Positions 479 through 26,522 of a stretch of DNA of 44,248 nt are shown piece after piece. The translations under genes and the position numbers were made by a program. Position 1 is the stretch's first letter; the number at the start of each line of letters is the position of its first letter. Below the pieces are notes generated by a model. It saw only the letters and a program-made list of their open reading frames with translations. It was not told the origin of the DNA and made no database searches. This DNA is from a virus, in IMG/VR virus record IMGVR_UViG_3300042691_047711, positions 1 to 44,248 of that record; one strand, given 5' to 3'.

Positions 479-1219
479 TTGAAACATCGGGCTAGAAAAT
501 TCAACGATTGGATCAACGAAAAGGTCGAGTACCATAAAGAACTCTGTCCAAAGATTTGGGACGGAGATGAGATGAGGACTGACGTGCGTAGAACTCTTTT
601 AGAAGTAGCAGAAGACTTTTGGAACTCTCTTAAGCTTGGGGTAAAAGTGATAGATGTCCAGTTAACCGGCTCTCTTGCAAACTATAATTGGAACATGGAC
701 TCAGACTTGGACGTTCACATCATCGTGGACTTTGCAGAGGTTGACGAAAACGTTGAACTAGTGAGAAAGGCTCTTGATGGCCAGCGATTCATGTGGAATC
801 AGAGACATCCAGTAATCCTTAGAGGACATGACGTAGAGTGTTACATTCAACATAAAGACGAACAACACACCGCATCCGGCCTCTATTCTCTTCTTAGAGG
901 AGAGTGGATAATAGTTCCCAAATACAATCCTCCTCAGATAGATCAAAGAGACGTTGCTGAGAAGAAGAGAGTCATTCAAACAGAGCTCAAGATGATGCAG
1001 CGACGGGCAAAATCTGCCAAGGGAGTTGAGGCCAAGATGCTGTATGAGTATGTCGAGAGACTAAAAAGGAAGGTGTTAGCGGATAGAAAGTCTGGACTCA
1101 CGGCCGGTGGAGAGTTTTCAGTTGAAAACCTAGTATTCAAGGAATTGAGAAGAGAGGGCACTATCGAAAAAATGATAGACTTAATGTCAGAGTTATATTC
1201 TAAAACCTATTCTGATTAG
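479..1219 (+). CDS. Minimal nucleotidyltransferase (Pol-beta fold), tagged
   Basis: 246 residues. The nucleotidyltransferase signature is clear: GS at residues 64-65, D-S-D-L-D at 74-78 (catalytic D76 and D78), and a likely third acid in D-V-E at 118-120. Such enzymes transfer a nucleotide to a protein, RNA or small molecule; the substrate cannot be read here. Similar proteins occur in marine T4-like phages with no known role. The start codon is TTG, chosen from the late promoter spacing and because the N-terminus (KFNDWINEK, residues 7-15) resembles the packaging tag. The C-terminal 90 residues are charged and helical. If it is packaged, it could be injected with the DNA, as T4 Alt is; that is inference. 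Confidence 0.8.
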   Translation: MKHRARKFNDWINEKVEYHKELCPKIWDGDEMRTDVRRTLLEVAEDFWNSLKLGVKVIDVQLTGSLANYNWNMDSDLDVHIIVDFAEVDENVELVRKALDGQRFMWNQRHPVILRGHDVECYIQHKDEQHTASGLYSLLRGEWIIVPKYNPPQIDQRDVAEKKRVIQTELKMMQRRAKSAKGVEAKMLYEYVERLKRKVLADRKSGLTAGGEFSVENLVFKELRREGTIEKMIDLMSELYSKTYSD

Positions 1220-1220
1220 A

Positions 1221-1229
1221 GATAAATAA
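1221..1229 (+). promoter_or_regulatory. T4-like late promoter before 1247 gene
   Basis: GATAAATAA lies directly after the stop codon of the nucleotidyltransferase gene. Predicted +1 is near 1234, giving a 13-nt A-rich leader before ATG 1247. Confidence 0.7.
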
Positions 1230-1246
1230 CAAAAAAAGAAATACTA

Positions 1247-1879
1247 ATGCATAAGTACTTTAATTTTGCAAAGATATTTGAGGCAGAACAGATGGGAGAG
1301 CCCCTAAGTCCAGAAGAGATGGGAACACCTACTGCCCCTGAGACATTCCAGTCTAGCTACACACAGAGCGATTCACCGGTGACAATTGATTTTAATAAGA
1401 TGCAGGAGACTCACATGTTAGACGTGCTCCTTACCAAGAAGGAAAAGGATCAATTGGAATTGGATGGGACTCTTACTAAGCCTGACACAAATCTAGTTAA
1501 CAAGACTAACGCGACTGACATCATACAGGTTCCAATGAAGATAACTATCACTGAGAAGCACAAGAGCGGATCGTTAGACGATCCAAACGCGATCTCATTC
1601 GTCGTAAGTCAACAGGAGTGGGAAGCAATCAGCAAAGGACTTCCTGGAGGAATCGTTCAGACAGCCTTACCTAGCACAAAGTCAACCGACAAGTTTTCAA
1701 TAAAGTTTGCGTTAGACCAGTCGTTGGACGAACAACCTTCTGAAAGATCCGGTGTCGCACCTAGTGACGAACAGATCAAATCAGGATCAGTTCCTCCTCC
1801 ACCAGTAGAAGGAGAAGTTAAAGCCGATGATACTTCTGAATCAAGAAGACTTATGAGCTTTTCACAATTTGTTAAATAA
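1247..1879 (+). CDS. Doubly tagged probable internal head protein
   Basis: 210 residues, no recognised enzymatic domain. The N-terminus MHKYFNFAKIFEAEQ fits the tag family and the extreme C-terminus ends in MSFSQFVK, a second tag-like motif. Between them are a Pro/Glu/Ser-rich segment (residues 15-50), a middle domain (about 60-165) and a Pro/Ser/Glu-rich linker. The gene has its own late promoter and sits first in a run of similarly tagged genes. By analogy with T4 internal proteins processed by the gp21 protease, I infer a scaffold- or capsid-packaged protein. The C-terminal tag is unusual because T4 tags are N-terminal. Confidence 0.7.
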   Translation: MHKYFNFAKIFEAEQMGEPLSPEEMGTPTAPETFQSSYTQSDSPVTIDFNKMQETHMLDVLLTKKEKDQLELDGTLTKPDTNLVNKTNATDIIQVPMKITITEKHKSGSLDDPNAISFVVSQQEWEAISKGLPGGIVQTALPSTKSTDKFSIKFALDQSLDEQPSERSGVAPSDEQIKSGSVPPPPVEGEVKADDTSESRRLMSFSQFVK

Positions 1880-1899
1880 TAAAAAAATACATAAAACTA

Positions 1900-2403
1900 A
1901 TGAGACGAATTAACGAATGTTCTTGTGGCTGTGGAGGAATGGACGGTGGTTGCATGAGAGAACCTGACAATTACATGTTCTTTGGAAACCTAAAGACGAT
2001 TAAACGACACGTAGATGCAATGTTAGAAATGGATCACGCGAGTGTAGACTCAATCCTAAGCGACGGTCATGGTTGGGCAGTAGATCACATTGCTTCCTCA
2101 TTAGATGACATCCAAGAGGTCGCAAACTTCCTAATGAGTATGCAACATCATGGAGGACACAATCCTTTAGCTGGGCTCATGATGCAGGACAACCCATTCA
2201 GTAAATTGGCTAAAAGCTTTGAGAGTTTCACTGTAAACGAGGCAAAGAAGAAAGAAAAGGCGAAAGCAGCTAAGAAGAAAAAGATAGATCAGGACGGAGA
2301 CGGAGATACTGATTTTGCTGATGCTAAGCTCGCTCAATATAAAGCGGGTGGAATGGACAAGAAACGAGCGATGATGCTCGCTAAGAAATTCAATTCAAAA
2401 TAA
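1900..2403 (+). CDS. Cys-rich protein with internal tag and EF-hand-like loop
   Basis: 167 residues in three parts. An N-terminal Cys/Gly cluster (C7, C9, C11, C18) could bind metal. A helical region follows (about 30-100). The tag-like KSFESFTVNEA at 105-115 precedes a Lys/Ala-rich stretch. Residues 130-141 then give Asp at loop positions 1, 3, 5, 7, 9 and 12, an EF-hand/dockerin-type calcium loop. The tail DAKLAQYKAGGM resembles C-termini of proteins in other T4-like phages. The leader is A-rich without an obvious Shine-Dalgarno. A strong terminator follows at once. Function unknown; probably late and virion-associated by context. Confidence 0.7.
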   Translation: MRRINECSCGCGGMDGGCMREPDNYMFFGNLKTIKRHVDAMLEMDHASVDSILSDGHGWAVDHIASSLDDIQEVANFLMSMQHHGGHNPLAGLMMQDNPFSKLAKSFESFTVNEAKKKEKAKAAKKKKIDQDGDGDTDFADAKLAQYKAGGMDKKRAMMLAKKFNSK

Positions 2404-2432
2404 AAAAAGCCGAGTTAATCTCGGCTTTTTTA
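2403..2432. terminator. Bidirectional intrinsic terminator
   Basis: Perfect stem GCCGAG (2409-2414) / CTCGGC (2420-2425), loop TTAAT. It is flanked by seven A's on the left and six T's on the right, so it can end transcripts from both strands. It separates convergent genes ending at 2403 (+) and 2436 (-). Confidence 0.9.
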
Positions 2433-2435
2433 TTC

Positions 2436-2735: not shown

Positions 2736-2737
2736 TA

Positions 2738-3317: not shown

Positions 3318-3329
3318 ATACTATTTGTT

Positions 3330-3536: not shown

Positions 3537-3571
3537 TTGATCTTATTTTTTTAAACTCTCTAAAATTCAGA

Positions 3572-3580
3572 GATAAATAA
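3572..3580 (+). promoter_or_regulatory. T4-like late promoter before 3599 gene
   Basis: GATAAATAA begins 27 nt before ATG 3599. Predicted +1 is near 3585, with a 14-nt AT-rich leader. Confidence 0.7.
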
Positions 3581-3598
3581 CTAAAATAATTATACACA

Positions 3599-4702
3599 AT
3601 GTCGGGTAGAGTTTTAAACTTTTTCGAATTTTCTGACAAATATTCAACAGGAAATAGCGATCCACTAGGTGTGGACAACATATCAAATGCCGCTGCAAAC
3701 TTTGAAGAAGGTTTTGATGACAGCACGTACGAACAGCCTGATTTAGGCCCTAAACGACCAGTATCTGGAGGATATGAGGCAACGCCAGCAGTACCAGGAG
3801 AAGTAGGAGCGCCTGCTTTCTCACCAGGAGCAAAGCCTGGAATGGAAGCGCCAGAGGAAGAAGAGCAGGATGAGGAATTGGAGGAAGACGAAGAGATTGA
3901 AGAGGAAGATGATGATTCAGGAAATCCTGAAGGAGAGGAAGAAGAGGAAGAAAAAGTGGAAGAAAGCTTTAAGCTAGTGAAGAGCTTTTCTGCATTCGTT
4001 AACGAATCATGGGGTCCAGACTCTTTTGAATATGCTGAAGACACATTTGGAGGCGGCAGACCAGAAGATGGCGAAGGCTACTCAGACGATGACTATGAAG
4101 ACGATGACCACTATGTCCATCCTAGTGTTTTATTTGGCGGAACAAGTTTTGGTGCAAATCCAGAAGGAGACGATATCGTAAATCAAGTGGAGGACGCAGT
4201 CACTCAGTTAAGCGACGACGAAAAAGCAATGATCGCTGACTACTTATCTAAAGATCCTGAAGCATTTCAAGAAATGGTAGAGGATGAGCTTGAACAGTCT
4301 ACTGATGCTGGTGCAAACCCGAGAGGAAGCATGGGCATGGGAAGAGAAGAGTTTGAGACCAGAAAGATCATAGATAAAATAATTAAAGGTATCGCGATAG
4401 GTTCAACTCTAGCCATAGTTCCAGCCGCGATGTTTATCAGTGGAGGACTTGCTCTAGCATTAGGTATTACTGGAGTAGTCGGTGGCATAGCTAAGGATGC
4501 TGCGTGGATGAAGAAAGGAGGCCATCATTACAGAGCGCAAGATCGAGCTGACAGCGGAATGGACTATCCAGAAGATGAAGAGTATGGAATGTATCCAAAA
4601 TACGATGATGAATATTCAGACGATGAAGAGAATGAATTTTGTTCTAACTGTGGAGCAGTTGTTGATCAGGAATATGGATACAGCTGTGGTTGTAACATGT
4701 AA
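3599..4702 (+). CDS. Acidic tagged protein with hydrophobic segment and zinc-ribbon-like tail
   Basis: 367 residues with an unusual modular layout. The N-terminus MSGRVLNFFEFSDKYS is weakly tag-like. A Pro/Gly linker leads to a very acidic run (about 85-120), then a clear internal tag VKSFSAFVNES (127-137) that would expose a site for prohead protease cleavage after Glu. G-A-N-P occurs at 185-188 and 238-241. A Gly/Ala/Ile-rich hydrophobic segment spans about 264-297, long enough to cross a membrane. The C-terminus holds C348, C351, C363 and C365 in a zinc-ribbon-like arrangement. It has its own late promoter. I infer a virion component processed during head maturation; function unknown. Confidence 0.75.
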   Translation: MSGRVLNFFEFSDKYSTGNSDPLGVDNISNAAANFEEGFDDSTYEQPDLGPKRPVSGGYEATPAVPGEVGAPAFSPGAKPGMEAPEEEEQDEELEEDEEIEEEDDDSGNPEGEEEEEEKVEESFKLVKSFSAFVNESWGPDSFEYAEDTFGGGRPEDGEGYSDDDYEDDDHYVHPSVLFGGTSFGANPEGDDIVNQVEDAVTQLSDDEKAMIADYLSKDPEAFQEMVEDELEQSTDAGANPRGSMGMGREEFETRKIIDKIIKGIAIGSTLAIVPAAMFISGGLALALGITGVVGGIAKDAAWMKKGGHHYRAQDRADSGMDYPEDEEYGMYPKYDDEYSDDEENEFCSNCGAVVDQEYGYSCGCNM

Positions 4703-4722
4703 TCCAGAAAACGGATAAGGAA

Positions 4723-5334
4723 ATGGCATCAATTACTCCTATAATAATAGCGTTCATAACTGGCGTCATCGGGCCCATTCTAGCGATCTACATCAAGAAC
4801 AGGATAGAGAGCTCTAAGCCCAAGCCCGATTTCATGATTGACGCTCTCAAGATAGGTGAACAGATCACTAATAAGATAGAGAGCATTCGAGAAGAGATGA
4901 AGGCCGATCGTGTGTGGATCATCCAGTTCCATAACGGCGGTCACTTCTATCCTACTGGAAAGTCAATCGCTAAGTTTAGTATGCTGTATGAAACTGTCGG
5001 AAGCGGTGCGGACTCAATCCAAACCAGCTTTCAGAACATTCCAGTGAACCTATTTAGCAAGTCGATAAATCAGCTCTTAGAAAAAGACACGATAGAGATT
5101 CCAGACTTTAAGGATGAGAAAGTAGCGACATACGGCTTAAAGTATGTTGCGGAGGAGTCCGGTTGTAAATCAGGTTATCTGTTCTCAATAAAGAACATTG
5201 ACGACAAGTTTATTGGGATCATGGGAGTGGACTATACTAGAAAAAAGACCAAGCTTGATGCTGAGGGGTGTAGCCAGTTAAGGATCCACGCAAACATCAT
5301 AGGCGGAGCGCTAATGAATCATCTTAACAAATGA
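4723..5334 (+). CDS. Membrane-anchored GAF-like protein
   Basis: 203 residues. Residues 4-25 form one hydrophobic N-terminal membrane anchor. A short charged linker follows, then a domain (about 55-200) with GAF-like organisation: VWIIQFHNGG opening strand, central helices, then GYLFSIKNIDDKFIGIMGVDY and a closing helix. GAF domains bind small ligands or mediate dimers; no ligand can be assigned. AAGGAA precedes the ATG as a Shine-Dalgarno-like site. Its stop overlaps the next start (ATGA at 5331-5334), indicating coupled translation with a tagged 52-residue protein. The GAF call is by overall pattern only. Confidence 0.6.
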   Translation: MASITPIIIAFITGVIGPILAIYIKNRIESSKPKPDFMIDALKIGEQITNKIESIREEMKADRVWIIQFHNGGHFYPTGKSIAKFSMLYETVGSGADSIQTSFQNIPVNLFSKSINQLLEKDTIEIPDFKDEKVATYGLKYVAEESGCKSGYLFSIKNIDDKFIGIMGVDYTRKKTKLDAEGCSQLRIHANIIGGALMNHLNK

Positions 5335-5489
5335 AAAGATTAGTAGAAAGCTTTCAAGAATTCATAACCTCTGCTGAGATACATCAGAATCCTGGAGCTT
5401 GGGAAAGGTATGGAGCTAATCCTAGAAAAAAGAAGAAGCTTAAAAGTCGTCCTCGTCGAAATCGTCAGAATAAGAGCCAATCCTTCTAG
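5331..5489 (+). CDS. 52-residue tagged basic protein
   Basis: A short gene missed by a 60-codon cut-off. It starts at ATG in an ATGA overlap with the upstream stop and ends at TAG 5487-5489. The N-terminus MKRLVESFQEFITSAE is one of the best matches to the tag. Residues 27-31 read Y-G-A-N-P, the second shared motif, and the last 20 residues are strongly basic (RKKKK, RPRRNR). A tagged, Arg/Lys-rich small protein would suit a DNA-binding internal head protein, as in T4. Its last 50 nt overlap the 3' end of a minus-strand gene. Confidence 0.8.
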   Translation: MKRLVESFQEFITSAEIHQNPGAWERYGANPRKKKKLKSRPRRNRQNKSQSF

Positions 5490-5691: not shown

Positions 5692-5727
5692 GATTAATTA
5701 TATCTCAAAATAGGGATCAGGTTTTTG

Positions 5728-5735
5728 AATAAATA
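5728..5735 (+). promoter_or_regulatory. T4-like late promoter before 5760 gene
   Basis: AATAAATA, one base off the usual G or T start. Predicted +1 is near 5741 with a 19-nt leader. Confidence 0.55.
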
Positions 5736-5759
5736 AAACTATAAAATAACGTTTGCGAA

Positions 5760-6218
5760 ATGAAGAAATACACTTTTATAAAAAGACTTAATGAGGCTGA
5801 CGACATTCAAATGATGCCGATGCAGCAATCCATGATGACACCGCCTTCACCTATACAAAAGCAACCTGGAATGGACATGCCTATGGAGGCTCCGCAACCG
5901 GTAGTAACTTCAATGGAGGAGATGCCTACTTTTTCTGAGACTCAACCTGAAGAGCCAAAGGCCCTTCCTCAAGCCGATGTGATGAACCTTACAGTTAAGG
6001 AACTAATGGAAAGATGTGAGAAGATCAATCCTCTAATTTGTATGGGTCTTGAGCAGTTCATTGAGATGAACAAAGAGCAGATCCTATCGATGACTACTGG
6101 AGCAGAGGAACCTACGATCGACGATAACACCGATCTTACTTTCTCTAAGCAGATAGAGCCTCAGCCTGCTGAGTTTTCTCTAGACCAGCCTGAGAGCGAT
6201 CTTAAGTTTCAAGCATAG
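5760..6218 (+). CDS. Tagged Pro/Met/Glu-rich protein
   Basis: 152 residues. The N-terminus MKKYTFIKRLNEADD fits the tag, with a likely cleavage point after Glu. Residues 17-75 are low complexity and rich in Met, Pro and Gln; a short helical domain (about 77-110, with two Cys at about 86 and 93) follows, then an acidic tail. No enzymatic motif. It leads a four-gene plus-strand run of tagged genes (5760-7267) with tiny gaps. I infer a late, head-packaged or scaffold-associated protein. Confidence 0.7.
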   Translation: MKKYTFIKRLNEADDIQMMPMQQSMMTPPSPIQKQPGMDMPMEAPQPVVTSMEEMPTFSETQPEEPKALPQADVMNLTVKELMERCEKINPLICMGLEQFIEMNKEQILSMTTGAEEPTIDDNTDLTFSKQIEPQPAEFSLDQPESDLKFQA

Positions 6219-6221
6219 GAC

Positions 6222-6491
6222 ATGAAGAGACTCTTTGAAGGATACGGTGCAAACACCATGGAAACGGATCCTCTGGACCTAATCCTACGACCGGACGTTC
6301 AGAGAGCCAATTCACTAATGTTTTATCAAGGAGCATCAGGTCAGGTACCAGCTCACTGGAATAACTCTCCATTCTTGACTGGAGGACGACTTACCAGCGC
6401 ATTTGGAGCCAATCCTAGGCCTTCTTCAAAAAACAAAGTAATGTCTTATAAAGAGTTCATTGAAGCTACCAGAAGACACCAGAATAAATAA
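6222..6491 (+). CDS. Small protein with tags at both ends and two GAN motifs
   Basis: 89 residues. The N-terminus MKRLFEGYGAN combines a short tag-like opening with G-A-N-T. Residues 62-66 give G-A-N-P-R, and 73-82 give VMSYKEFIEA, almost the T4 internal-protein propeptide (T4 IPIII begins MKTYQEFIAE), here near the C-terminus. It starts 3 nt after the previous stop. Its final codons AAT-AAA-TAA form the late promoter for the next gene. Probably a structural or packaged peptide; which pieces survive processing is unknown. Confidence 0.75.
   Translation: MKRLFEGYGANTMETDPLDLILRPDVQRANSLMFYQGASGQVPAHWNNSPFLTGGRLTSAFGANPRPSSKNKVMSYKEFIEATRRHQNK
6483..6491 (+). promoter_or_regulatory. Late promoter embedded in a stop codon context
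   Basis: AATAAATAA is both the Asn-Lys-stop end of the upstream gene and a late-promoter-like motif. Predicted +1 is near 6496, 11 nt before ATG 6507. Confidence 0.6.
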
Positions 6492-6506
6492 AAATAAAGC
6501 ATACAC

Positions 6507-6824
6507 ATGTCATCATACATAAAGAGCTTTAAAAGTTTTCAAAATGCCGCAGACAAGGCAGCCAAGGAAGTGGAAGCTGGAGCCAATCCTCAAATGATAG
6601 AGGAGGACGACGCTTCTCTCTTGACTGATCCTGCTCTGACTGCAATACGAGACCAGAAGAGAAACTTGGAAAAACAACTGGAGCAAGTAAAACAGCAAGA
6701 GGATACTAAACTAAAGGAACTAGCAACAAAAGCAGCTGAAGCACAAAAGACCGCACAAGCGGCTAAAAATACAGCAGTCGCTCAGCCTACTACTCCAGCC
6801 GCTCCTGCTGCGCCTACCGCATAA
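6507..6824 (+). CDS. Tagged Ala-rich coiled-coil protein
   Basis: 105 residues. N-terminus MSSYIKSFKSFQNAAD is a tag variant with Asn-Ala in place of Asn-Glu. G-A-N-P-Q occurs at 25-29. Residues 45-90 form a Lys/Glu/Gln/Ala-rich coiled coil, and the tail is Ala/Pro/Thr-rich. Composition is like scaffold or internal head proteins. The stop TAA shares its last base with the next ATG (6824), so the two genes are probably translated together. Confidence 0.7.
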   Translation: MSSYIKSFKSFQNAADKAAKEVEAGANPQMIEEDDASLLTDPALTAIRDQKRNLEKQLEQVKQQEDTKLKELATKAAEAQKTAQAAKNTAVAQPTTPAAPAAPTA

Positions 6825-7267
6825 TGGAAAGAAAGATAAAGTCATATAATCAATTCGTGAACGAGGCAACTAAGGAGGTCGTGTATCCTACCAATTTTAA
6901 GGGCATGGTACAGGGAGCTCTGTCTGGACTCTATTCTCAGATCATGGCGATCGCTAGAGAGCTTGCGAATGAGAAGGCTGCAAGAAATCCAAATCGTTAC
7001 AATGGAGAGATCCAAGAAGTTGACATCACCAGGGCGATGAACATGATCTTCCACAGCGATTGGAAAAAGAAGATGAAACAGCAGGCACTAGATCAGGTGA
7101 TGAGGAGCTCTACTGAGAGAGCCTCTAAACAGGATGACGTGATTGCTAAGAAAAACCTAAGAGCGATGGGTCGCTCGATGGGAGATAAAGACTTTAATCT
7201 TTCAATCGATAAGTCTAGCATTAGATTTAGCGACGAGAGAGGAAGCGGAACGGGTAAAAATCAATAA
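6824..7267 (+). CDS. Tagged helical protein
   Basis: 147 residues. N-terminus MERKIKSYNQFVNEATKE is a textbook tag for this window (S-Y-x-x-F-V-N-E-A). The mature part would be about 130 residues: helical (about 25-115, rich in Ala, Met, Lys, Arg) with a beta-like, basic C-terminus. No enzymatic motif. Its position at the end of the tagged run and before tail genes suggests a late virion protein. Start fixed by the one-base overlap with the upstream stop. Confidence 0.7.
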   Translation: MERKIKSYNQFVNEATKEVVYPTNFKGMVQGALSGLYSQIMAIARELANEKAARNPNRYNGEIQEVDITRAMNMIFHSDWKKKMKQQALDQVMRSSTERASKQDDVIAKKNLRAMGRSMGDKDFNLSIDKSSIRFSDERGSGTGKNQ

Positions 7268-7272
7268 TAGGA

Positions 7273-11754: not shown

Positions 11755-12060
11755 TTATGCTTTTTGCATCAGCTTATCGGCGTCGGCAGGATCAAGTTTT
11801 CCCATCTCAACCAGCTTTACCAATAGCGCGGCCATTGCAAGCTTTTCCGGAACGTCTTCTTCAGTCATCTCAACCTCGTCGGCGTTAGCCGCAGCGGAGA
11901 GGTCCTCAAAAGCGCTTTTTGCAGCCTCCTCAACTTCTTCTTCAGAACCCACCAATTCTACCAATTCATCCAAAATGGCAGTATCGATGTTCATGTCCAC
12001 GTTTTCGTCGATTGACTCATAAAGACGATAGTCCCTTAGCGATAAAATTCTTCTTTTCAT
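11755..12060 (-). CDS. Small acidic tagged protein
   Basis: 101 residues. N-terminus RDYRLYESIDEN (9-20) fits the tag (Y-x-x-Y-E-S). The rest is acidic and helical (EEEVEEAAKSAFEDL), ending with a helical pair around residues 70-98. Small size, acidity and location beside head genes recall T4 gp67, a prohead core protein, but sequence identity cannot be claimed. It has its own late promoter and terminator, so it is a monocistronic late unit. Confidence 0.65.
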   Translation of the reverse strand: MKRRILSLRDYRLYESIDENVDMNIDTAILDELVELVGSEEEVEEAAKSAFEDLSAAANADEVEMTEEDVPEKLAMAALLVKLVEMGKLDPADADKLMQKA

Positions 12061-12078: not shown

Positions 12079-12087
12079 TTATTTATC
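12079..12087 (-). promoter_or_regulatory. T4-like late promoter before 12060 gene
   Basis: GATAAATAA on the minus strand. Its first G is the last base of the primase stop codon TAG (12087-12089). Predicted +1 is near 12074, 14 nt before the ATG. Confidence 0.65.
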
Positions 12088-15392: not shown

Positions 15393-16157
15393 ATGGCAAG
15401 AAGAAAGAATCAACTAAGCAAAGAAGAACAAGAGGACTTTGACCAGTGGTCAAGAGAGAGGGAGGCGATTGAGACCTCAAAGAATTTCAACGAGAAGATT
15501 GACATAAAGTGCAGATCGAAGGCACAAAAGGACGCCCTAAATGCCATTGAAAACCACGACATATCAATCGTGACTGGTCCTCCAGGAACGGGTAAGACCT
15601 ATCTCTCCTGTGCTAGAGCGCTGAAGTACTTAAAGGACGAACCTGCGACATATCGCAAGATCATCTTAATCAAGTCAGTAAACGTTCCTAAAGACGAGGA
15701 GATAGGATACTTGAAAGGAACCCTTGAGGAGAAGATGGAGATGTACATGTATCCATTCATCTCTAACTTTCACAAGGTAATCGGTAAACCTGCGACCGAG
15801 TTTCTTAAGGCTGCCGGAAAGATTGAGATCCTACCCATCAAGTTTGCGTTAGGAGTGACACTAGACGATTCAATAATCCTGATTGATGAGGCTCAGCAGA
15901 TCGCAAAAGATCACCTACATACTCTGATCACCAGGATTGGAACCAATTCCAAGATGGTATTCTTGGGCGACATCAAGCAGAAGTCAGTGAACAAGAATCA
16001 AAAGAGCGCGCTTGAGATCCTAATGGAATATTTTGTGGAGATCGAGGAGATAGGAATGGCTCAGCTATCGACGGATGATATCGTTCGACATCCTATCATC
16101 AAGAAGATCGAAAAAGTTTTTGAAAAGATTGAAAATTCTGAGAAGCTAAATAAATAA
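15393..16157 (+). CDS. phoH: PhoH-like ATPase
   Basis: 254 residues. Walker A GPPGTGKT at 62-69, the PhoH-typical VNVPKDEEIGYLKG and EEKMEMY section, Walker B IILIDEAQQ, and a sensor-like FLGDIKQK. PhoH-like genes are widespread in marine T4-like phages; they are superfamily-1-like ATPases with suggested RNA helicase or phosphate-stress roles that remain unproven. The coding end CTA-AAT-AAA-TAA doubles as the late promoter of the next gene. A charged N-terminal 35 residues precede the ATPase core. Confidence 0.92.
   Translation: MARRKNQLSKEEQEDFDQWSREREAIETSKNFNEKIDIKCRSKAQKDALNAIENHDISIVTGPPGTGKTYLSCARALKYLKDEPATYRKIILIKSVNVPKDEEIGYLKGTLEEKMEMYMYPFISNFHKVIGKPATEFLKAAGKIEILPIKFALGVTLDDSIILIDEAQQIAKDHLHTLITRIGTNSKMVFLGDIKQKSVNKNQKSALEILMEYFVEIEEIGMAQLSTDDIVRHPIIKKIEKVFEKIENSEKLNK
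16149..16157 (+). promoter_or_regulatory. Late promoter embedded in phoH stop
   Basis: AATAAATAA encodes Asn-Lys-stop of the PhoH gene and forms a late-like promoter with predicted +1 near 16162, 11 nt before ATG 16173. Confidence 0.6.
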
Positions 16158-16172: not shown

Positions 16173-16478
16173 ATGAAAGATCACGTAAAGAAATTTGGTT
16201 TATTTATAAATGAAGGAAGAAAATTTAGATCTGAATTAGTCGGAGGAAGGGGACAAAAGGCTCAATATGATGAGCTTACTCCAGAAGAGCAAACTCAATT
16301 AGAGATGCTGTTTACAGAATTAAGCGGAGATCGTAAGCTAGCTAAAATGTTTGTTAGTGGAATGTCTTCTTATAATTCAATTGAGGATATAAAGGCAGGT
16401 TTAGAACACGCGCTAGACTTTTTAAGAAATCCTGAGACTGGCGAAGATGAACCTAATTGGGACATGAGTAACTACTGA
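16173..16478 (+). CDS. Small tagged protein
   Basis: 101 residues. N-terminus MKDHVKKFGLFINEGRKF is a good tag (F-x-x-F-I-N-E-G). The remainder has a short basic stretch, then an acidic helical domain (about 35-85, ELTPEEQTQLEML then LEHALDFL). No enzymatic motif. It has its own late promoter and is followed by a terminator, so it is a monocistronic late unit beside early-type replication genes. Predicted to be packaged in the head and cleaved after Glu15. Confidence 0.7.
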   Translation: MKDHVKKFGLFINEGRKFRSELVGGRGQKAQYDELTPEEQTQLEMLFTELSGDRKLAKMFVSGMSSYNSIEDIKAGLEHALDFLRNPETGEDEPNWDMSNY

Positions 16479-18572: not shown

Positions 18573-19064
18573 TTATCTGACAAAGTCGATGAACATGTAA
18601 TTTGTTGAACCTATCTCAAAGTGGTCGTTGTTGTCCATCTCGTCCTTGCTTAGAGAAGAAACGAGTTCATTTCCTGCGTTTATAGTAGAGCCGTCAGAAT
18701 AATAGCAATTTATCTCGTCCTCTCCTTTTTTACCCAAAAAGACTACCTTTGTCTTAAATGCATCGAATATTTTTGGTATCTTATTCTTAAAGATCTCATC
18801 GTCCTGGACCATCATGAAAATGGATGGATACTTGATCAGTTTTCCGTCCTTGCTCATGAGAGCCTTTTGCTTGATGTATTCGGTGCCTATGAGTTCTGAA
18901 TCTAGTGCAGAGAGATATGCATCTGAATTCTTAAAGACTATGATTGCGAAGGGCAATCTCATCTGGACGGCGTCTCGTATGTCGGTCCATGAGCCAGAGG
19001 TTTCCTCGCTAGAATTCTTTAATTCATTCTCATAGTCTTCGAATAACTTGATGTATTTTCCCAT
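18573..19064 (-). CDS. Tagged protein, unknown mature domain
   Basis: 163 residues from ATG 19064; the frame is open to a TTG at 19076, but the ATG gives the tag MGKYIKLFEDYENE at the very N-terminus and a 17-nt leader after the late promoter. The mature part is alpha/beta: FAIIVFKNSDAYL, IFMMVQDDE, VVFLGKKG, then a beta end HFEIGSTNYMFIDFV that resembles the closing strands of FHA-like domains, though key FHA residues are not clear. Predicted packaged protein. Confidence 0.65.
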   Translation of the reverse strand: MGKYIKLFEDYENELKNSSEETSGSWTDIRDAVQMRLPFAIIVFKNSDAYLSALDSELIGTEYIKQKALMSKDGKLIKYPSIFMMVQDDEIFKNKIPKIFDAFKTKVVFLGKKGEDEINCYYSDGSTINAGNELVSSLSKDEMDNNDHFEIGSTNYMFIDFVR

Positions 19065-19085: not shown

Positions 19086-19094
19086 TTATTTATC
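19086..19094 (-). promoter_or_regulatory. T4-like late promoter, minus
   Basis: GATAAATAA on the minus strand; predicted +1 near 19081. It decides between start codons by favouring ATG 19064 over TTG 19076. It lies between divergent genes. Confidence 0.65.
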
Positions 19095-19701: not shown

Positions 19702-20303
19702 TAGTAGTAATAGAAGGCCATAGGCACAGCGGAAAAACTTTTCTAATCGAGAAGTTTCTTGAACAGAATACCAATCCAAAGGTTCATTACTATAAGTTTC
19801 AATTTGCAAAATATGTTGAAGCCCTAAACATGAAAGACCAAGAAACTGGTCCAGGAGTTCACTACTTCAGCATTGCGAACGTGCTCACCATACTTGAACT
19901 CAATCAGACTCTCTTGAAGGATCATATCTTAGTATTTGATCGATGTATCTTTTCGGCATACGTTTGGTCAATCTACAGAGAAAGAATGAACTCGTTGAGA
20001 TTACTTACTGAGTTTAAAAAGATCCTAATGAGCGATCTTTATCAAAACAGTAAAGTATTATATGTTGAGAGAGAAGAAGGAATATCAGTCACTCGGAGAG
20101 AAAAGGATTACTTTGGAAACTTTGAGAACACAGACAGCGAGAAGGAGCTCTTTGAGAGGATCTTTTCAGAGTTTAAACCTCAGATCACGGATGAGTCTAA
20201 AAACAATGGATTTGATAGGATGGTGAATCGATTCAACGAAGAAAGCATCGCTGAATTTAATCAAAGGTTAAACAGTCTAATAAATAACTCTGTCTCTTCT
20301 TAA
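19698..20303 (+). CDS. P-loop nucleotide/polynucleotide kinase
   Basis: 201 residues. Walker A GHRHSGKT at 7-14, a D-R motif in LVFDRCIFSAYVW (like D-R-Y-x-x-S of thymidylate kinases), and a lid-type basic section (EREEGISVTRREKD). Best match by pattern is the dNMP/thymidylate kinase family; polynucleotide 5'-kinase activity is possible because it is translationally coupled (ATGA) to a HAD phosphatase-like gene. The C-terminal 45 residues are helical. Followed immediately by a late promoter. Confidence 0.65.
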   Translation: MIVVIEGHRHSGKTFLIEKFLEQNTNPKVHYYKFQFAKYVEALNMKDQETGPGVHYFSIANVLTILELNQTLLKDHILVFDRCIFSAYVWSIYRERMNSLRLLTEFKKILMSDLYQNSKVLYVEREEGISVTRREKDYFGNFENTDSEKELFERIFSEFKPQITDESKNNGFDRMVNRFNEESIAEFNQRLNSLINNSVSS

Positions 20304-20310
20304 TAAATAA
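20302..20310 (+). promoter_or_regulatory. Late promoter overlapping kinase stop
   Basis: AATAAATAA shares its first two bases with the kinase stop codon (20301-20303). Predicted +1 is near 20315, 12 nt before ATG 20327. Confidence 0.6.
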
Positions 20311-20326: not shown

Positions 20327-20872
20327 ATGGCAAAATATATGAGAAGCTACTTTGAGTACGTGAACGAGGCTGAAGGAGCTCCCAAATCTTTAAGAGGCTA
20401 TAAGGCTGAGATCTTGATCGAGAGAATAGAAGAGCTCATGCAAGTCTTATCAGATAAAGTAAGATTCGGAGTACCGTCAGACTATTTGGGCAAAGCTCTT
20501 ACTTCTAGGGACGCGAACGGAGCCATTCAAAGGATCAAAGAACTTACAAGATATTACACCGGAAACGGAGAGGAAGTAAGATTTTACTGCTGGTCGATAG
20601 CCTATGCTGGATCCTTTGAGGCAACTGAAAGCCTCAAGGAAAAGATCGAAGCAGCAGGCGGATTCGGCAGTGACCTTAACATGAACTTGAAGAAGATCAT
20701 AACATACTTCTCTGAGAATAAGGAGGACTCAGATAACGTGGCTACCATTTCCATAGGAATGGACGCTAAGAGCATTAGAGACTCTATAAACAAAGCAAAA
20801 CAGAAAATTTCTAAAACTAAAGAGGAAGGCTCCGCTAAACCGGCTGCACCTCAACAGGAGGAAGAGATCTAA
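20327..20872 (+). CDS. Tagged protein
   Basis: 181 residues. N-terminus MAKYMRSYFEYVNEAEG is a strong tag (S-Y-x-x-Y-V-N-E-A). A helical middle domain (about 25-95) with an aromatic segment EVRFYCWSIAYAG follows, then a second alpha/beta part to about 155, then a Lys/Glu/Ala/Pro-rich tail. No motif of a known enzyme. Late promoter directly upstream; the ligase-like fusion gene starts 10 nt downstream, so the two are probably on one late transcript. Confidence 0.7.
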   Translation: MAKYMRSYFEYVNEAEGAPKSLRGYKAEILIERIEELMQVLSDKVRFGVPSDYLGKALTSRDANGAIQRIKELTRYYTGNGEEVRFYCWSIAYAGSFEATESLKEKIEAAGGFGSDLNMNLKKIITYFSENKEDSDNVATISIGMDAKSIRDSINKAKQKISKTKEEGSAKPAAPQQEEEI

Positions 20873-20882
20873 AGACTGACGA

Positions 20883-22754
20883 ATGGCAGGAATAAACAAT
20901 CTACGGGAGATTTACGAAAAGAAGGGTGAGGCCTTTTTGGCAGGACTATTGAATAAGTACGTGATAGTCAACGAAAAGGTCGATGGCGCGTTTTTTGGAG
21001 TAAAGAAAACCAAGGAAGACTCATTCAAGTACTTTAAGAAGTCCGGTGAGATTACTTACGTTGATCGAGTGTTGATGAAGTATTACAACCCGGCAATCCG
21101 ACATTTTGAAGGGCTCTCAATGGAGAAGAGGCAGCGAATTCCAGCAAACTTCTTTTTTGGCTTTGAGTTCTTTACTCGAAGCGATTCTACCATGAGCAGC
21201 AGAAGAGCCGGTGGACCTAAAAACGGGCTAGTTCTCTCCTACATTCATCGTCTTGATGACTCTGGAAACATTGCTGAGACGCTACAATCAAAGGATCAAT
21301 TAGTTCGATGGGCAAACTACTTAGAGGTAGATGCTCAGCCGATAATCTTTGAAGGAAACCTTGACGATGAGCAAAAGACTAAGATACTTGAATTCGTTTA
21401 TTCTGATGCTAGAGAACTGGAGGAAAGGTTCAAGACCACGTCGTTTACCAAGCACATACTCTCTGTTCTGGATCCAGACTCACTGGTCGATCTAAACGAT
21501 AGAGAAATGGAAACGATAGTCTTTAGGTTCTATGGTGAGGGCGCTGAGAATGACGTGTTTCTAGCGAAGATGGTGGACCCAATCTTTCAAAAAAGAGTCG
21601 GCGAAGCCTCTAAAAAGAAGTCAACCTCCTCTCAAGATTACATTTGGCTCATAGTGATCGATCTTATGAACCACTTTGAGATGTATGACATAGATGATGT
21701 CAAGAAAAAGGTTGAGGAATGCGATACTTATGAAGAAAAGTACATACGTCTCATCAATTCAATATTCAAAGACTTTTTAAAAGAGTATTCAGATAAGTAT
21801 GACGGCCTCTCCTTAGAGATTCCTGATTACCTAAGAAGACCTGAGTTCGAATTGGACATGGATATGGTCGGAGACCCTGAAGTGGTGAACATGATCAGTA
21901 AGAGCGAGACGAACAAGGAAATATACAAGATCCTATTGAACTTCTTTAGAAAGGTAAGAAAGAAATCAAGCGCTGGCTTCTTTACTCCTGAATTGATCTC
22001 TCAATTGAACCTAATAGTACAGAAGATCAAGAACATCATCATGGGGGACGCGGTCTATGAGGGACTCTTCCCTAGCTTTAGTCAGTTTCTAGGAGTACCG
22101 ACTGATTTTTCTACCATGAGCGAGAAAGAATTCGCAAAGAACTCAGCAAACCGAGTAGAGCCCACTGAGGTAAACATACTAATAGGCGCCTTTCAACCAG
22201 TGACGATGGGACACATTAAGTCAGCCGAAGCAATGAAGGCGAAGAACGGAAAAAAGACAATATTTGTCGCGATCAAGGGAGAGAAGCAGACCAAGATGTC
22301 TCCTCTCACTCCTGTGACAACCGTGACCCTATTAAACAAGGTTCAACAGGAATACTCAAACCTGATCGCTGATGTAAGAGTGGTTCCTGGAGGAAACCTA
22401 GAGGAGATCATAAAGGCAATACGACCAGACTATGAACCGATGCTTTGGGGAACCACTAGTCGTAGGCTAAAGGATTACGCGATTCAGCTGGACTACATTA
22501 AGAGAAGAGACATTCCTCTGAGGATATCAAAGGAATTCAAGATAGTTGAACTTCCTAGCTACATCAAGTCTGAGGAAGTATTCAATTCAATAAAAGATTC
22601 TAACTTTGCTGAGTTTAAGAGACTCGTGCCTGACTCTATTGAGTCAGAGTTTTTTAACTTACAGAAAGAGTTAGGAATAAGAACTCCTATCATGGAGAAT
22701 CAGGACGACAGATTATCAGAAAAAGATTTTGATAAGAACGAAGAGATCTTGTAA
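20883..22754 (+). CDS. Ligase-like nucleotidyltransferase fused to HxGH-type adenylyltransferase
   Basis: 623 residues in two halves. The N-terminal half has covalent-nucleotidyltransferase (RNA/DNA ligase, capping-enzyme) motifs: motif I E31-K-V-D-G35 with nucleophile K32, motif III-like FFGFEFF (91-97), IV-like ETIVFRF (210-216) and V-like LAKMVDP (228-234). A helical linker spans about 245-390. The C-terminal half has the cytidylyl/NMN-adenylyltransferase signature GAFQPVTMGH (435-444), with T-x-G-H at 441-444, and a late YIKSEEVFNSI region. The first half may seal or charge nucleic-acid ends; the second may make NAD or a similar dinucleotide. Motifs IV and V are weaker. A tag-like SFSQFL at 398-403 lies at the junction. 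Confidence 0.7.
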   Translation: MAGINNLREIYEKKGEAFLAGLLNKYVIVNEKVDGAFFGVKKTKEDSFKYFKKSGEITYVDRVLMKYYNPAIRHFEGLSMEKRQRIPANFFFGFEFFTRSDSTMSSRRAGGPKNGLVLSYIHRLDDSGNIAETLQSKDQLVRWANYLEVDAQPIIFEGNLDDEQKTKILEFVYSDARELEERFKTTSFTKHILSVLDPDSLVDLNDREMETIVFRFYGEGAENDVFLAKMVDPIFQKRVGEASKKKSTSSQDYIWLIVIDLMNHFEMYDIDDVKKKVEECDTYEEKYIRLINSIFKDFLKEYSDKYDGLSLEIPDYLRRPEFELDMDMVGDPEVVNMISKSETNKEIYKILLNFFRKVRKKSSAGFFTPELISQLNLIVQKIKNIIMGDAVYEGLFPSFSQFLGVPTDFSTMSEKEFAKNSANRVEPTEVNILIGAFQPVTMGHIKSAEAMKAKNGKKTIFVAIKGEKQTKMSPLTPVTTVTLLNKVQQEYSNLIADVRVVPGGNLEEIIKAIRPDYEPMLWGTTSRRLKDYAIQLDYIKRRDIPLRISKEFKIVELPSYIKSEEVFNSIKDSNFAEFKRLVPDSIESEFFNLQKELGIRTPIMENQDDRLSEKDFDKNEEIL

Positions 22755-22787
22755 GATCTTACCTGAAACAAAAAAAATTCGATCAAT

Positions 22788-24347
22788 ATGAGGTTTAATG
22801 ACCTGGAGGAGATTGATAAAGAATACATCGGTAAAACATATTTAGACAAGGACATCAAGTGGCGAGTCAGGATGATTTCTCTCACTGACAAGTTTGGTGT
22901 TACTCAACGTACCATTGAAAGATGGGTAAGCAGAATGGGACTCACCTCAAAGCAGGCAGAGGAGCCAGAACAGTTTAAGATCGCTCAAGCTAGAGAACAC
23001 AATAAAAAGGCTAAGCGATTCATCATTACTTGGGCACAAAACAACACGCAAGTTCACGAAGATTTCTTAAGGAATATCGAGGCGTATGCTGAGTTCATAA
23101 ACGCTGATATCCACGTGATAGCAGGTAGGTACAAGAATCCGACTAGCGTTTGGACTAACGCTCAAACGATTGAGGAGAGATGGCATGAGTCGGTAGTAAA
23201 GTATTTGGATGCGAATCGACATGACATTCATAAGAGAGTATCCATCATGTCAGACGTAAAGATCCAGCCGACTGCCGTAAATCCAATGACTGGACTTGAA
23301 GGAATGAGTGGCATAAACTCCTGTGTCTTTGGTTCTCCTAAGACACAGCTAGAGATGATTCCTGTACTAGAGGGTCACGAACCCAAGATGATGGTCACGA
23401 CTGGCGCATGCACAATGAAGAATTACACGGATTCTAAGTCTGGTAAGAAGGGAGAGTTTCATCACATGTTAGGTTTTGTGATAGTTGAGATAAAGGACGA
23501 GGACGCCTTCTTTATGAGACAGGTCACCGCTACCGATTGCGGCTCATTCACAGATCTATTTTATAGAGTTCAAGACGGGGAGGTTGAACGAACCAATAAG
23601 ATTACAGCAATCGTTTTAGGGGACCTACACTACGGTCACCATGATCATGAGGTACTTGAAAGGACTCTTGACTTCATGAATAGGATGAATCCCGATCACG
23701 TGGTTCTACATGACGTTTTTGACGGCAAGTCGATCTCTCACCACGAAGAAAAGGATCCATTCATACAGTATCAAAAGGAGATTGAGGGCACAAACTCTTT
23801 AAAGAAGGAGATTGACGATCTGCTTAAGGGACTTTCTGACTTTGAGGAATACAACACGGTGATAGTTCGTAGCAATCACGATGATTTTGTGGATCGTTGG
23901 CTAAAGAACACGGACTGGCGAAAGACCGTGACTCCAAAGAACTCGTTAGAATACATGCAATTCTCAGCAGCCATCTTAAAGGGAGAAGCTCCACAGGGAG
24001 TCATTCCTTGGGTGATCAAGAAAAGGTATCCTCATTTCATTACATTGGGAAGAAGCGATAGCTACATAGTAAAAGGTTGGGAACTAGGTCAGCATGGAGA
24101 CGTGGGTTCAGGAGGAAGCCGAGGCTCGCTACAACAGTTTAGAAGGTTAAATACAAAGATCATAGTCGGTCACTACCACTCACCTGGAAGAAAGGATGGT
24201 GCGCTTGCGGTGGGAACCTCGACCGAACTTAGAGTAGGATATAACATAGGACCCAGCTCTTGGCTACAGTCTCACGTGATAATCCACGAGGATGGGAAGG
24301 CACAGCACCTTCACTTCATTAAAGGAGAATACACGACCCTAAAATAA
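22788..24347 (+). CDS. HTH plus calcineurin-like phosphoesterase (T5 A1-like?)
   Basis: 519 residues. The N-terminus (about 25-50, TDKFGVTQRTIERWVSRMG) is a helix-turn-helix. After a middle domain that includes a Cys/Gly-rich part comes a metallophosphoesterase: GDLHYGHHD (motif G-D-x-H), HDVFDGKS, R-S-N-H-D for the usual G-N-H-D, and GHYHSPG near the end. Such enzymes are metal-dependent phosphodiesterases or nucleases. Overall layout recalls the T5 DNA-transfer protein A1 family, but I cannot confirm it. A possible role is host DNA degradation or takeover. Confidence 0.65.
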   Translation: MRFNDLEEIDKEYIGKTYLDKDIKWRVRMISLTDKFGVTQRTIERWVSRMGLTSKQAEEPEQFKIAQAREHNKKAKRFIITWAQNNTQVHEDFLRNIEAYAEFINADIHVIAGRYKNPTSVWTNAQTIEERWHESVVKYLDANRHDIHKRVSIMSDVKIQPTAVNPMTGLEGMSGINSCVFGSPKTQLEMIPVLEGHEPKMMVTTGACTMKNYTDSKSGKKGEFHHMLGFVIVEIKDEDAFFMRQVTATDCGSFTDLFYRVQDGEVERTNKITAIVLGDLHYGHHDHEVLERTLDFMNRMNPDHVVLHDVFDGKSISHHEEKDPFIQYQKEIEGTNSLKKEIDDLLKGLSDFEEYNTVIVRSNHDDFVDRWLKNTDWRKTVTPKNSLEYMQFSAAILKGEAPQGVIPWVIKKRYPHFITLGRSDSYIVKGWELGQHGDVGSGGSRGSLQQFRRLNTKIIVGHYHSPGRKDGALAVGTSTELRVGYNIGPSSWLQSHVIIHEDGKAQHLHFIKGEYTTLK

Positions 24348-24357
24348 CAAAAAAGGA

Positions 24358-24552
24358 ATGGCAAAGAAGAAACACTCATCCTGGAAAAATTACGAGGACT
24401 ATCGTAAGGGCAAGGCTTCTCTAGAGAACGCTGTGATGCAGCACCCTGAAGAGGGAAACTCAGGCAAGTCAGTGTATGACTTTATGAAGGGAGAGATCAA
24501 GAGAAACCTATGGGTGATTCCCTATGACAAGTTTAAAAAGAAAGATAAATAA
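24358..24552 (+). CDS. Small basic hypothetical protein
   Basis: 64 residues, not recognised. Lys-rich at both ends with a short acidic middle. An AAGGA Shine-Dalgarno-like site lies just before the ATG, 10 nt after the phosphoesterase stop. Its last codons GAT-AAA-TAA form the next late promoter. Likely co-transcribed with the phosphoesterase. Confidence 0.55.
   Translation: MAKKKHSSWKNYEDYRKGKASLENAVMQHPEEGNSGKSVYDFMKGEIKRNLWVIPYDKFKKKDK
24544..24552 (+). promoter_or_regulatory. Late promoter embedded in Asp-Lys-stop
   Basis: GATAAATAA covers the final Asp, Lys and stop codons of the 64-residue gene; predicted +1 near 24557, 13 nt before ATG 24570. Confidence 0.65.
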
Positions 24553-24569
24553 TAAAAACCTAGAGAAGA

Positions 24570-26522
24570 ATGAGTTTCGGAGAATACTTACGACAATGGA
24601 TGAGCTTTCAAGGACCCATCTTTGAAGCAGAAGGAGAGGATTCATCAGAGGAGGAAGGCTCAGGCTCCAAGTTCGAAGAGATTCGTGAACTAATCGCGAC
24701 CGGAATTGGCGGAGACCCAAAGGACGATATCGCTAGGGTCACGTCTTTCGATTCTCTAGAGAAAACATTAGACCTGCTTGACATAGAGCTCTTAGATAGG
24801 ATACAGACTGAACCAGAACTACAAAAGATCCTAATGATGCTGACCCTTCCTGATAAGATAGGAATGGTTGAGGAGTTCATAAAGAGATCTAAGCAGAACA
24901 TGGTTGAGATAGGTAAGGAGAAAAAATCAATAAAGCCGGAGAACACCTTTAAAAAGTTCTTTGCGCTTAAGACCAGAGAAGCTGCGATCTCTAGCATGGT
25001 CTATAAGATCTACAAGATATTTTATTATGCCGACCAGACTGAGCAGTACGATAGTGAGACCTCTCTAATGCTCTACTTTAAGGAGAACGATGTTGAATTA
25101 AAATTCTCACAACGAGAAGGGACTCCTTTCTTCAAGATAAAGCTCGTGGGAGGAGTGCATAATGCGGTGAAATCTGACGAGTTCATAGTGGTGGGCCAAG
25201 ACGGTACTGAGCAGACATTGAAAAAATCGATGTTCAAGAGCATAGTCAAATCCAATCCAGAGGCGGTAGAAACTGCAAAGAAAGCAGTGAGTGCATCCAA
25301 CAAGAAAAAGGTGAATAAGGTTCTCACAAAGACTGGAGAACTCATAGCAGAGGAGATCGCAGACTCCATAAAAGACGATGAAGAAAGAATAAATGCGATA
25401 CCTGAGACTCCAGAAGGAACATATCAGCTAAATATCGATTGGAAACCGCTGATCGATGCATTAGGATATCAGTCGGTTCACGGAAAGACCGTTCAAAAGA
25501 AGGAAGAAAAGCTAGAAAAGGTAGAAAAGCCCAGTCTTAGACGTAAGAACATCATAAAGAACAACCTGATCTCGGCCCTTAACATGGCACTACTTCCGCC
25601 GATCGTGAACGGAGAAGTTTCTTCCCCTGGTGGAGACTATTACAAGCTTTTCAAGAAGCTTAGGGAAAAGAACTCTGCCTGGATGGAAAATGCAATCTCT
25701 AGCGAGTTCGCAAGCATGCAGAGAGCTAGCCAGTTTAGTGCGGCAGCCGGTCAGGCTGAGAGCTCCTTAGAGGAGGATCAATTGGCATATCTATCCTTAA
25801 GCAAGGAGTGGATCATAAAGTACATCAAGAGCGAGGAGGACGGCGAGCTTTCAGATAAGGACAGAACGTCTGCCATCACTAAGGTGGAAAACATTGCAGC
25901 TGAAAAACAGAAACAGATAAAGAACAACTATCTCTCTAGAGACTTTAACATGGGTAACTTTAAGGGAATCCAGTTGAAACCTGACCTAAAGCTTCCCCTA
26001 TACGTTAGAGTAAAGCTAGCAGTGAGTGAGGCAGACCGAATAGCAGAAAGCCCTCTCAAGAACCTGCTCAAAGGGCTTGGCCAGATACTCGCTGGACTCT
26101 TTTCTTCCATACCTGATACCGGAAACGCTGCGATCGCTGCCAAGAATGCCGCTCAAAATAGAGCGATATTTAATGGAATCACCAGTATAATAAAGGGAGG
26201 AGTCTTTGCAGTCGGAGGCAAGCAAGCCGGTCGAGACTTTGAAAAGGGTCTTACTAAGGCAACAGCTAAAGCTAGGCTTGATGTCGTCGGTCTGACTCCT
26301 TACAAAAAGGATGAAGGTCCAAAGTTCTTCAAGTCAGCTGAGATGAAGGAGAGCGAGGGAGCCGCTCCGGGTGCAAGCTTTCAGACTCCCGACACAATGG
26401 TAGACTCTAACATGGATACCTTTGCTCTTGCAGGTCCAGGAAGAAAGATTAAGGGCAAGAAGAAGAAATCTATGATCAAGAAGATCTCTAACTTCAACGA
26501 TTTTTTGAAAAACCGTGACTGA
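24570..26522 (+). CDS. Large tagged protein, possible ejected or core protein
   Basis: 650 residues, no enzyme motif. The N-terminus (MSFGEYLRQWMSF then GPIFEAEGED, about 1-25) holds an extended tag followed by an acidic Ser/Glu/Gly linker. Long helical regions rich in Lys and Glu follow. A hydrophobic, Ala/Gly-rich section (about 500-545, KNLLKGLGQILAGLFSSIP and FNGITSIIKGGVFAVGG) could interact with membrane. The C-terminus ends SMIKKISNFNDFLKNRD, a second tag-like motif. Late promoter immediately upstream. Size, tags and amphipathic segments suggest an internal head protein delivered with DNA; this is inference. Confidence 0.65.
   Translation: MSFGEYLRQWMSFQGPIFEAEGEDSSEEEGSGSKFEEIRELIATGIGGDPKDDIARVTSFDSLEKTLDLLDIELLDRIQTEPELQKILMMLTLPDKIGMVEEFIKRSKQNMVEIGKEKKSIKPENTFKKFFALKTREAAISSMVYKIYKIFYYADQTEQYDSETSLMLYFKENDVELKFSQREGTPFFKIKLVGGVHNAVKSDEFIVVGQDGTEQTLKKSMFKSIVKSNPEAVETAKKAVSASNKKKVNKVLTKTGELIAEEIADSIKDDEERINAIPETPEGTYQLNIDWKPLIDALGYQSVHGKTVQKKEEKLEKVEKPSLRRKNIIKNNLISALNMALLPPIVNGEVSSPGGDYYKLFKKLREKNSAWMENAISSEFASMQRASQFSAAAGQAESSLEEDQLAYLSLSKEWIIKYIKSEEDGELSDKDRTSAITKVENIAAEKQKQIKNNYLSRDFNMGNFKGIQLKPDLKLPLYVRVKLAVSEADRIAESPLKNLLKGLGQILAGLFSSIPDTGNAAIAAKNAAQNRAIFNGITSIIKGGVFAVGGKQAGRDFEKGLTKATAKARLDVVGLTPYKKDEGPKFFKSAEMKESEGAAPGASFQTPDTMVDSNMDTFALAGPGRKIKGKKKKSMIKKISNFNDFLKNRD

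Follow-up and report, generated by a model that had tools for sequence, protein, structure and literature searches.

Putative T4-type capsid-targeting tags at the ends of, and within, diverse proteins of a T4-superfamily phage lineage

The window analysed here is the whole 44,248-nucleotide stretch of IMG/VR record IMGVR_UViG_3300042691_047711, a 44.2-kb fragment of a T4-superfamily phage, in which many proteins carry a short motif (hereafter the tag) resembling the capsid-targeting sequence (CTS) of phage T4. The window portal protein matched Portal_T4 (E 3e-61). By portal, the nearest named relatives were the uncultured giant phages LR756500 (462 kb, 39% identity), LR756504 (636 kb) and LR756501 (735 kb), followed by the Lak phages, PTm1 and PAU; 80 closer relatives came from IMG/VR. 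We examined in full the long contigs of seven relatives (G001–G006, G012), LR756500 (W01), T4, PAU (W07) and PTm1, and in part LR756504 (W03), LR756501 (W04), Lak-A2 (W05; 120 kb) and Chryseobacterium phage MA9V-2 (W08).

An earlier note on this DNA, made by reading the sequence, had listed a series of tagged N-termini, and all of them were present where it had placed them. Its literal pattern, [SFY][FY]xx[FY][IVL]xE[AGS], proved too strict, fitting only the proteins starting at 6824 and 20327 in the window. The tag was scored with a profile built from 54 tagged N-termini of the seven related contigs, with the window and T4 left out, which gave the consensus [IV]K[STG][FY]x[QED][FY][IV]NE[AS]. 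A canonical CTS-type leader, with aromatic residues at positions 4 and 7, an aliphatic residue at 8 and Glu at 10, was carried by four window proteins (plus strand unless marked with a minus sign; a slash marks the putative cut). These were the nucleotidyltransferase at 479-1219 (ARKFNDWINE/K, 491..523), read from a TTG start that is conserved in relatives and scoring 16.5 from that codon; 6824-7267 (IKSYNQFVNE/A, 6836..6868; score 27.7), with 41 of 42 orthologues tagged; 16173-16478 (VKKFGLFINE/G, 16185..16217; score 21.2); and 20327-20872 (MRSYFEYVNE/A, 20339..20371; score 12.0), with 9 of 11 orthologues tagged.

The remaining N-terminal copies were variants. The gene at 18573-19064(-) encoded IKLFEDYENE/L (19020..19052(-); score 12.4), and its G001/L045 orthologue LKTFQHYLNEQ, while 6507-6824 opened with the core IKSFKSFQNAA (6519..6551; score 13.6). 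The 52-residue basic protein at 5331-5489 began with the core VESFQEFITSA (5343..5375), of which relatives keep F..F[IL] with no Glu at position +6 of the core. Several named window genes lacked a strong tag because they carried variant forms: a short leader, an I-x-E leader, or cores without Glu. The first was found in 5760-6218 (FIKRLNE/A, 5775..5798), a short cleavage-type leader whose orthologues read IKRLYE/ADD, and the second in 1247-1879 (YFNFAKIFE/AE, 1256..1288), present in all orthologues with a cleavage-like I-x-E. Glu-less cores opened 3599-4702 (VLNFFEFS, 3611..3634), conserved in orthologues, and 24570-26522 (MSFGEYLRQW, 24570..24599), where F3 and Y6 were invariant and L7 nearly so among 17 sequences; for these two genes the listing in the earlier note is corrected to a tag core that lacks the cleavage Glu. 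Three further shorter or variant forms had canonical counterparts in orthologues, namely APYESINE/S (387..413(-)) in the gene starting at 425(-), with orthologues MNKHVLTFSQIINES and MNMKHVKSYSSINES; MKRLFE/G (6222..6242) in 6222-6491, for which 20 of 37 orthologues scored at least 8; and ILSLRDYRLYES (12013..12048(-)) in 11755-12060(-), with orthologues MSFREYKLNEM and NFSNFTNEA. A short string, [FYA]GAN[PT], recurred in the tagged proteins 3599-4702, 5331-5489, 6222-6491 and 6507-6824, and the N-termini of relatives' major capsid proteins contain the comparable ESYGAN or EGYGAD.

In relaxed form, the motif showed N-terminal enrichment both in the window and in all aquatic relatives. Five window proteins (6824, 16173, 6507, 18573/19064(-) and 20327) scored at least 8 versus 0.24 for shuffled N-termini (Poisson p about 5e-6), a count that is not fully independent, given that orthologues of some window genes were within the training set. 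By family, 10 of the 14 that the earlier note had named possessed at least one orthologue scoring at least 8, versus 1 of 36 other window genes with orthologues (Fisher p about 1e-6). The giant phages and T4 served as tests independent of the training. At a threshold of 12, LR756500 had 21 proteins versus 0.46 in shuffles, and the parts examined of LR756504, LR756501 and MA9V-2 had 8 (0.06 expected), 8 (0.02) and 6 (0.18), respectively; there were none in the Lak-A2 part and one in PTm1. More than 25 LR756500 proteins begin like MKYIKEYEEFLNE, and many of its tagged proteins also end alike, in NADDFG[FL]. PAU showed a second, different tag type: about 18 of its proteins, mainly within 106051-113735 and many of them around the portal and protease genes, share the leader MKT[LI]xxLYE, after which [AS]KLNE[AS] often comes.

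Such a motif could arise by coincidence or by the common ancestry of paralogues, and some tagged LR756500 proteins are indeed paralogous (six leucine-rich repeat, LRR, proteins). However, shuffles and internal windows yielded far fewer hits, N-terminal core sites occurred in 66 families unlinked by BLAST (39 of them mostly with Glu at +6), and the tag was retained in orthologues while the adjacent sequence diverged. The enrichment persisted after families were collapsed, and we rejected this explanation as highly improbable. Codon choice within the tags was similar to that of the genome, which indicates that conservation acts on the protein and not on the DNA.

Copies beyond those listed in the earlier note were found inside proteins and at C-termini. 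Internal tags were present in 1900-2403 (LAKSFESFTVNE/A, 2206..2244), with a basic segment downstream, and in 3599-4702 (VKSFSAFVNE/S, 3977..4009). In the relative L052, the tag and the following segment of the 1900 protein form a separate gene that starts with the tag. C-terminal cores were present in 1247-1879 (LMSFSQFVK, 1850..1876), whose relatives have the core internally, followed by NE and a further segment; in 6222-6491 (VMSYKEFI, 6438..6461), where 25-26 relatives have no Glu at +6; and in 24570-26522 (ISNFNDFL, 26484..26507), with F642, D644 and F645 invariant in 17 sequences.

Core sites were counted by position over 2,508 proteins of the clade. Glu at +6 accompanied 129 of 186 N-terminal cores (69%) versus 3 of 61 C-terminal cores (5%), or 39 of 66 versus 1 of 17 by family. 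Internal cores kept it (18/18 in the 3599 family, 7/8 in the 1900 family and 7/7 in the 1247 family). At C-termini, E[SAG] was instead found at most nine residues before the core in 10 of 29 families, versus 3.05 expected (p=5e-4), as in VPNESR-ILSFSKFIND and TSESRR-LMSFSQFVK. The putative protease site thus tends to be placed between core and cargo. The 24570 family kept its invariant aromatic residues at both ends, mostly without Glu (present at 2/19 C-terminal sites). At low confidence (predicted template modelling score 0.41), AlphaFold predicted the 24570 protein as all-helical, each core forming a short helix next to long disordered linkers; the predicted structure had no PDB match below E 0.001, and a PDB sequence search was empty. 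The C-terminal region of the 24570 family contains a PGxxFQTPG-like sequence that recurs close to the N-terminal end of the major capsid protein in relatives (GVFFQTPGSLGG).

The genes carrying tags were also marked by their upstream sequences. The motif ATAAATA, which played no part in defining the tags, clustered about 26 bases upstream of start codons and is close to the T4 late promoter TATAAATA. Among operon-first genes of eight records, it preceded 30 of 38 tagged genes (79%), 8 of 23 structural genes, 1 of 21 replication genes (5%) and 123 of 562 others. On this indirect, promoter-based evidence, the tag would not be equally common in early genes, the outcome that the earlier note had set against its own proposal. 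Upstream of tagged genes, enrichment was seen for the lineage variant ATAAATA and not for the exact T4 promoter TATAAATA. In the window, late-type elements lay on the plus strand upstream of 479 (ATAAATAA, 453..460), 1247 (1222..1229), 3599 (3573..3580), 5760 (5729..5736), 6507 (6484..6491), 16173 (16150..16157), 20327 (20303..20310, with a second copy at 20280-20287) and 24570 (24545..24552), and on the minus strand upstream of 425(-) (ATAAATAA, 430..437), 12060(-) (12079..12086) and 19064(-) (19086..19093). ATAAATA also preceded the head-closure gene 11669(-), 26567 (the first gene of the baseplate operon) and the functionally uncharacterised 14763. These promoters also bear on whether the N-terminus could act in secretion or membrane targeting, as its initial Met and Lys and some hydrophobic residues might suggest. 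The tag lacks an unbroken hydrophobic stretch, conserves its polar residues and Glu, and has copies at C-termini and internally, and its genes have late-type promoters; we give a signal peptide practically no credence.

When the profile was run on 269 T4 open reading frames, the internal proteins IPII and IPIII (MKTYQEFIAEA) ranked at the top and gp61.1 third. The best hit in the T4 major capsid protein gp23 was QAFGSFLTE-A, whose Glu is residue 65, and this position equals the stated 65-residue length of the gp23 propeptide. IPI kept the core MKTFKEF and not the adjoining Glu. The two aromatic positions of the profile correspond to T4 residues 4 and 7, and its aliphatic and Glu positions to residues 8 and 10. 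The third hit, gp61.1 (NC_000866, 18966-19130(-)), is a 54-residue protein beginning MKTFKEFIKED and is a candidate for an overlooked T4 internal protein.

A gp21-type (S77) prohead protease and gp23 were encoded in 13 of 16 relatives' records. The protease open reading frame was about 610-670 residues long, its C-terminal part was the scaffold, and gp23 came next. In the scaffold half, 9-12 units of fourteen residues followed one another in tandem, with the consensus IxY[ST][ED]Y[LIV]AExLNxS, and only one of the 14 possible unit registers fits the tag profile. Segments matching [FYHW]xx[FYHW][ILVM]xE numbered 8-11 in 22 of 23 distinct scaffolds (shuffled mean about 0.15), spaced by 14 residues in every scaffold with listed positions. 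In the LR756500 scaffold only four segments matched, with degenerate units in between, and no 14-residue array was found in the Lak-A2 (120 kb), PTm1, PAU or T4 scaffolds. An exclusive link between tag and array was refuted by MA9V-2, which has tags without an array. Since the scaffold units share the core motif of the tag, cargo tags probably imitate a scaffold repeat.

The same likeness would be expected if the motif served solely as a longer recognition sequence for the prohead protease, with targeting achieved otherwise and the scaffold repeats alike as fellow substrates. [ILV]xE is shared by tag and scaffold repeat, the gp23 motif of T4 lies at a cleavage point, and short leaders such as KRLYE/A (5760) lack an aromatic core. 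This explanation does not account well for the C-terminal copies, in which the aromatic core is conserved and Glu lost, nor for the Glu-less 24570 family with its invariant aromatic residues. In T4, mutagenesis of the CTS separated targeting (residues 4 and 7) from processing (residues 8 and 10), and Asp at position 10 blocked processing and not targeting (PMC9026906). We consider a pure protease site unlikely; the Glu-less C-terminal copies argue against mere protease-site likeness, without proving docking.

We judge it highly probable that the motif is a two-part, T4-type CTS, in which a core docks on the prohead scaffold and is then removed by a protease cut, so that the cargo would be delivered with the DNA. 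The T4-like capsid-targeting reading proposed in the earlier note gains support from the T4 profile hits, from the agreement of the conserved tag residues with those governing targeting and processing in T4, from the protease and gp23 of relatives, and from the late-type promoters. The docking core, [IV]K[STG][FY]xx[FY][IVL], would present two aromatic residues three apart and an aliphatic residue, probably on one face of a short helix, and would bind the scaffold by imitating one of its repeats, with late-made cargo co-assembling into the core of the prohead. The cleavage site, xE/[ASG], would be cut by the gp21-type protease, which would cleave scaffold and tags alike after Glu and leave the cargo free in the head, for injection with the DNA. 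At N-termini the cut would tend to follow the core and at several C-termini to precede it; in internal copies it would again follow the core and so split fused proteins. Cargo such as the 24570-26522 protein, which has a core at each end and lacks the cleavage Glu, may remain bound or take part in building the core. We lean towards scaffold mimicry as the principle, by which one unit at either end of a protein or between its domains would cause it to be built into the head and trimmed by the same protease. With a similar, modest preference, we view its occurrence in this clade and in the 462-735 kb giant phages as a general, evolvable packaging code.

Several points weigh against this two-part reading. 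The protease and scaffold genes are absent from the 44-kb fragment and both were deduced from relatives, and we found no virion proteomics for this lineage. The array is not universal, as MA9V-2 and T4 have the tag without it, and tag and scaffold might look alike only because the same protease recognises both. The aromatic residues and Glu were preconditions for entering the training set, which makes those columns partly circular; the selection rule did not extend to I/V, K and S/T/G before the core, to Q/E at +2 or to N at +5. Gene starts came from a home-made caller, and the statistics take genes of related phages as independent, for which reason p-values are indicative.

The cargo was diverse. 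The earlier note had expected an enzyme among the tagged proteins, and the product of 479-1219 is an enzyme-like, putative nucleotidyltransferase with intact motifs, including an invariant GS...SDLD; a PDB sequence search with it was empty, and its predicted structure (predicted local distance difference test score 57) was not used. The other window cargo comprised small basic or acidic proteins and many proteins of unknown function. In aquatic relatives, tags were found on two NUDIX proteins and on CHAP, tail-lysozyme-type, peptidoglycan-binding and HD-type phosphohydrolase proteins. Giant-phage cargo included the six LRR proteins (e.g., LR756500 L121:13446-14282), a DUF2201 metallopeptidase with a VWA-like domain, a PNK 3'-phosphatase, an ATP-grasp protein, a methyltransferase and an FMN reductase; a defence-family scan of this cargo gave three weak hits only. 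This agrees with the claim of a larger and more varied set than in T4, with many more cargoes, enzyme and LRR domains among them.

The tag could alternatively mark core proteins whose role is to give a large head its shape and which act in assembly only, without being delivered as effectors. The tagged genes 6222, 6507, 6824 and 5331 lie in a conserved cluster beside neck, baseplate and portal genes, the 24570 protein has uncleavable cores at both ends, and T4 itself has core proteins (gp67, gp68 and gp22). Against an assembly-only role stand the nucleotidyltransferase, NUDIX, ATP-grasp, metallopeptidase, methyltransferase and LRR domains of the cargo, and a tagged set that varies between phages, as accessory effectors would. 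We regard that role for all tagged proteins as possible and clearly the less likely case; they are probably a mixture of assembly proteins and delivered effectors.

Other genes of the window were recorded. A conserved 623-residue protein at 20883-22754, present in seven relatives, resembles an RNA ligase in its N-terminal part and a cytidylyltransferase in another part, and 22788-24347 strongly matched phrog_1745, a 'DNA transfer protein', in a T4-type phage (E 1e-152). The family B DNA polymerase at 13213-14646(-) covered the Pfam model from position 145 onwards, its C-terminal part alone, and may be split. A long block at 32526-44243(-) presumably consists of surface-sugar genes (NeuB-like, oxidoreductase, glycosyltransferase and methyltransferase), by the look of the sequence.

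The system shares with the CTS of T4 IPI, IPII and IPIII its motif and spacing (MKTYQEFIAE/A), a gp21-type protease and late-type promoters. It differs in its many more and more varied cargoes, in its C-terminal and internal copies and, in relatives, in a protease fused to a repeat scaffold with the tag motif, whereas T4 gp22 had no repeat-motif match. In herpesviruses, the protease-scaffold precursor is likewise a single polypeptide; here the protease is of the S77 type and the scaffold bears 14-residue repeats with the cargo-tag motif. At least ten T-even internal proteins have been reported, with only the leader in common, and Ip1-3 inhibit GmrSD restriction enzymes (PMC12373910). The present lineage likewise has unrelated cargo with only a packaging leader in common, but where the T-even phages have a few anti-restriction proteins at defined loci, its tagged genes are dispersed, often have their own promoter and include enzymes and, in giant phages, LRR proteins. 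The head of SPN3US is packed with many proteins, some cut by the prohead protease (PMC5694885), and this lineage resembles SPN3US and phiKZ in a giant-phage head filled with proteins that would be partly protease-cut. In those phages, however, several propeptides exceed 100 residues and do not carry this short motif, and no gp22 counterpart was confirmed (PMC5694885). The lineage studied here has a T4-type portal, gp23 and an S77 protease in relatives, and short tags, which sets it apart from the phiKZ-type head with long propeptides. In the open literature, with most subscription journals outside the search, we found no paper on giant-phage tags, a repeat scaffold, or C-terminal or internal tags.

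Read from sequence, the system is a greatly enlarged form of T4's capsid targeting, with a repeat scaffold probably at its centre. In the sources consulted, T4 targeting is explained no further than by affinity for the core; we propose that the targeting sequence is recognised because it imitates a scaffold repeat. The proposal predicts tags at C-termini and excisable tags within proteins, which could serve to load proteins into phage heads. With the tag as a guide, the cargo that uncultured giant phages probably inject can be read off their sequence. A motif search can list effectors, among them enzymes and LRR proteins whose target is unknown, for tests of counter-defence or host takeover. 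If scaffold mimicry is true, giant phages would be able to deliver dozens of effectors.

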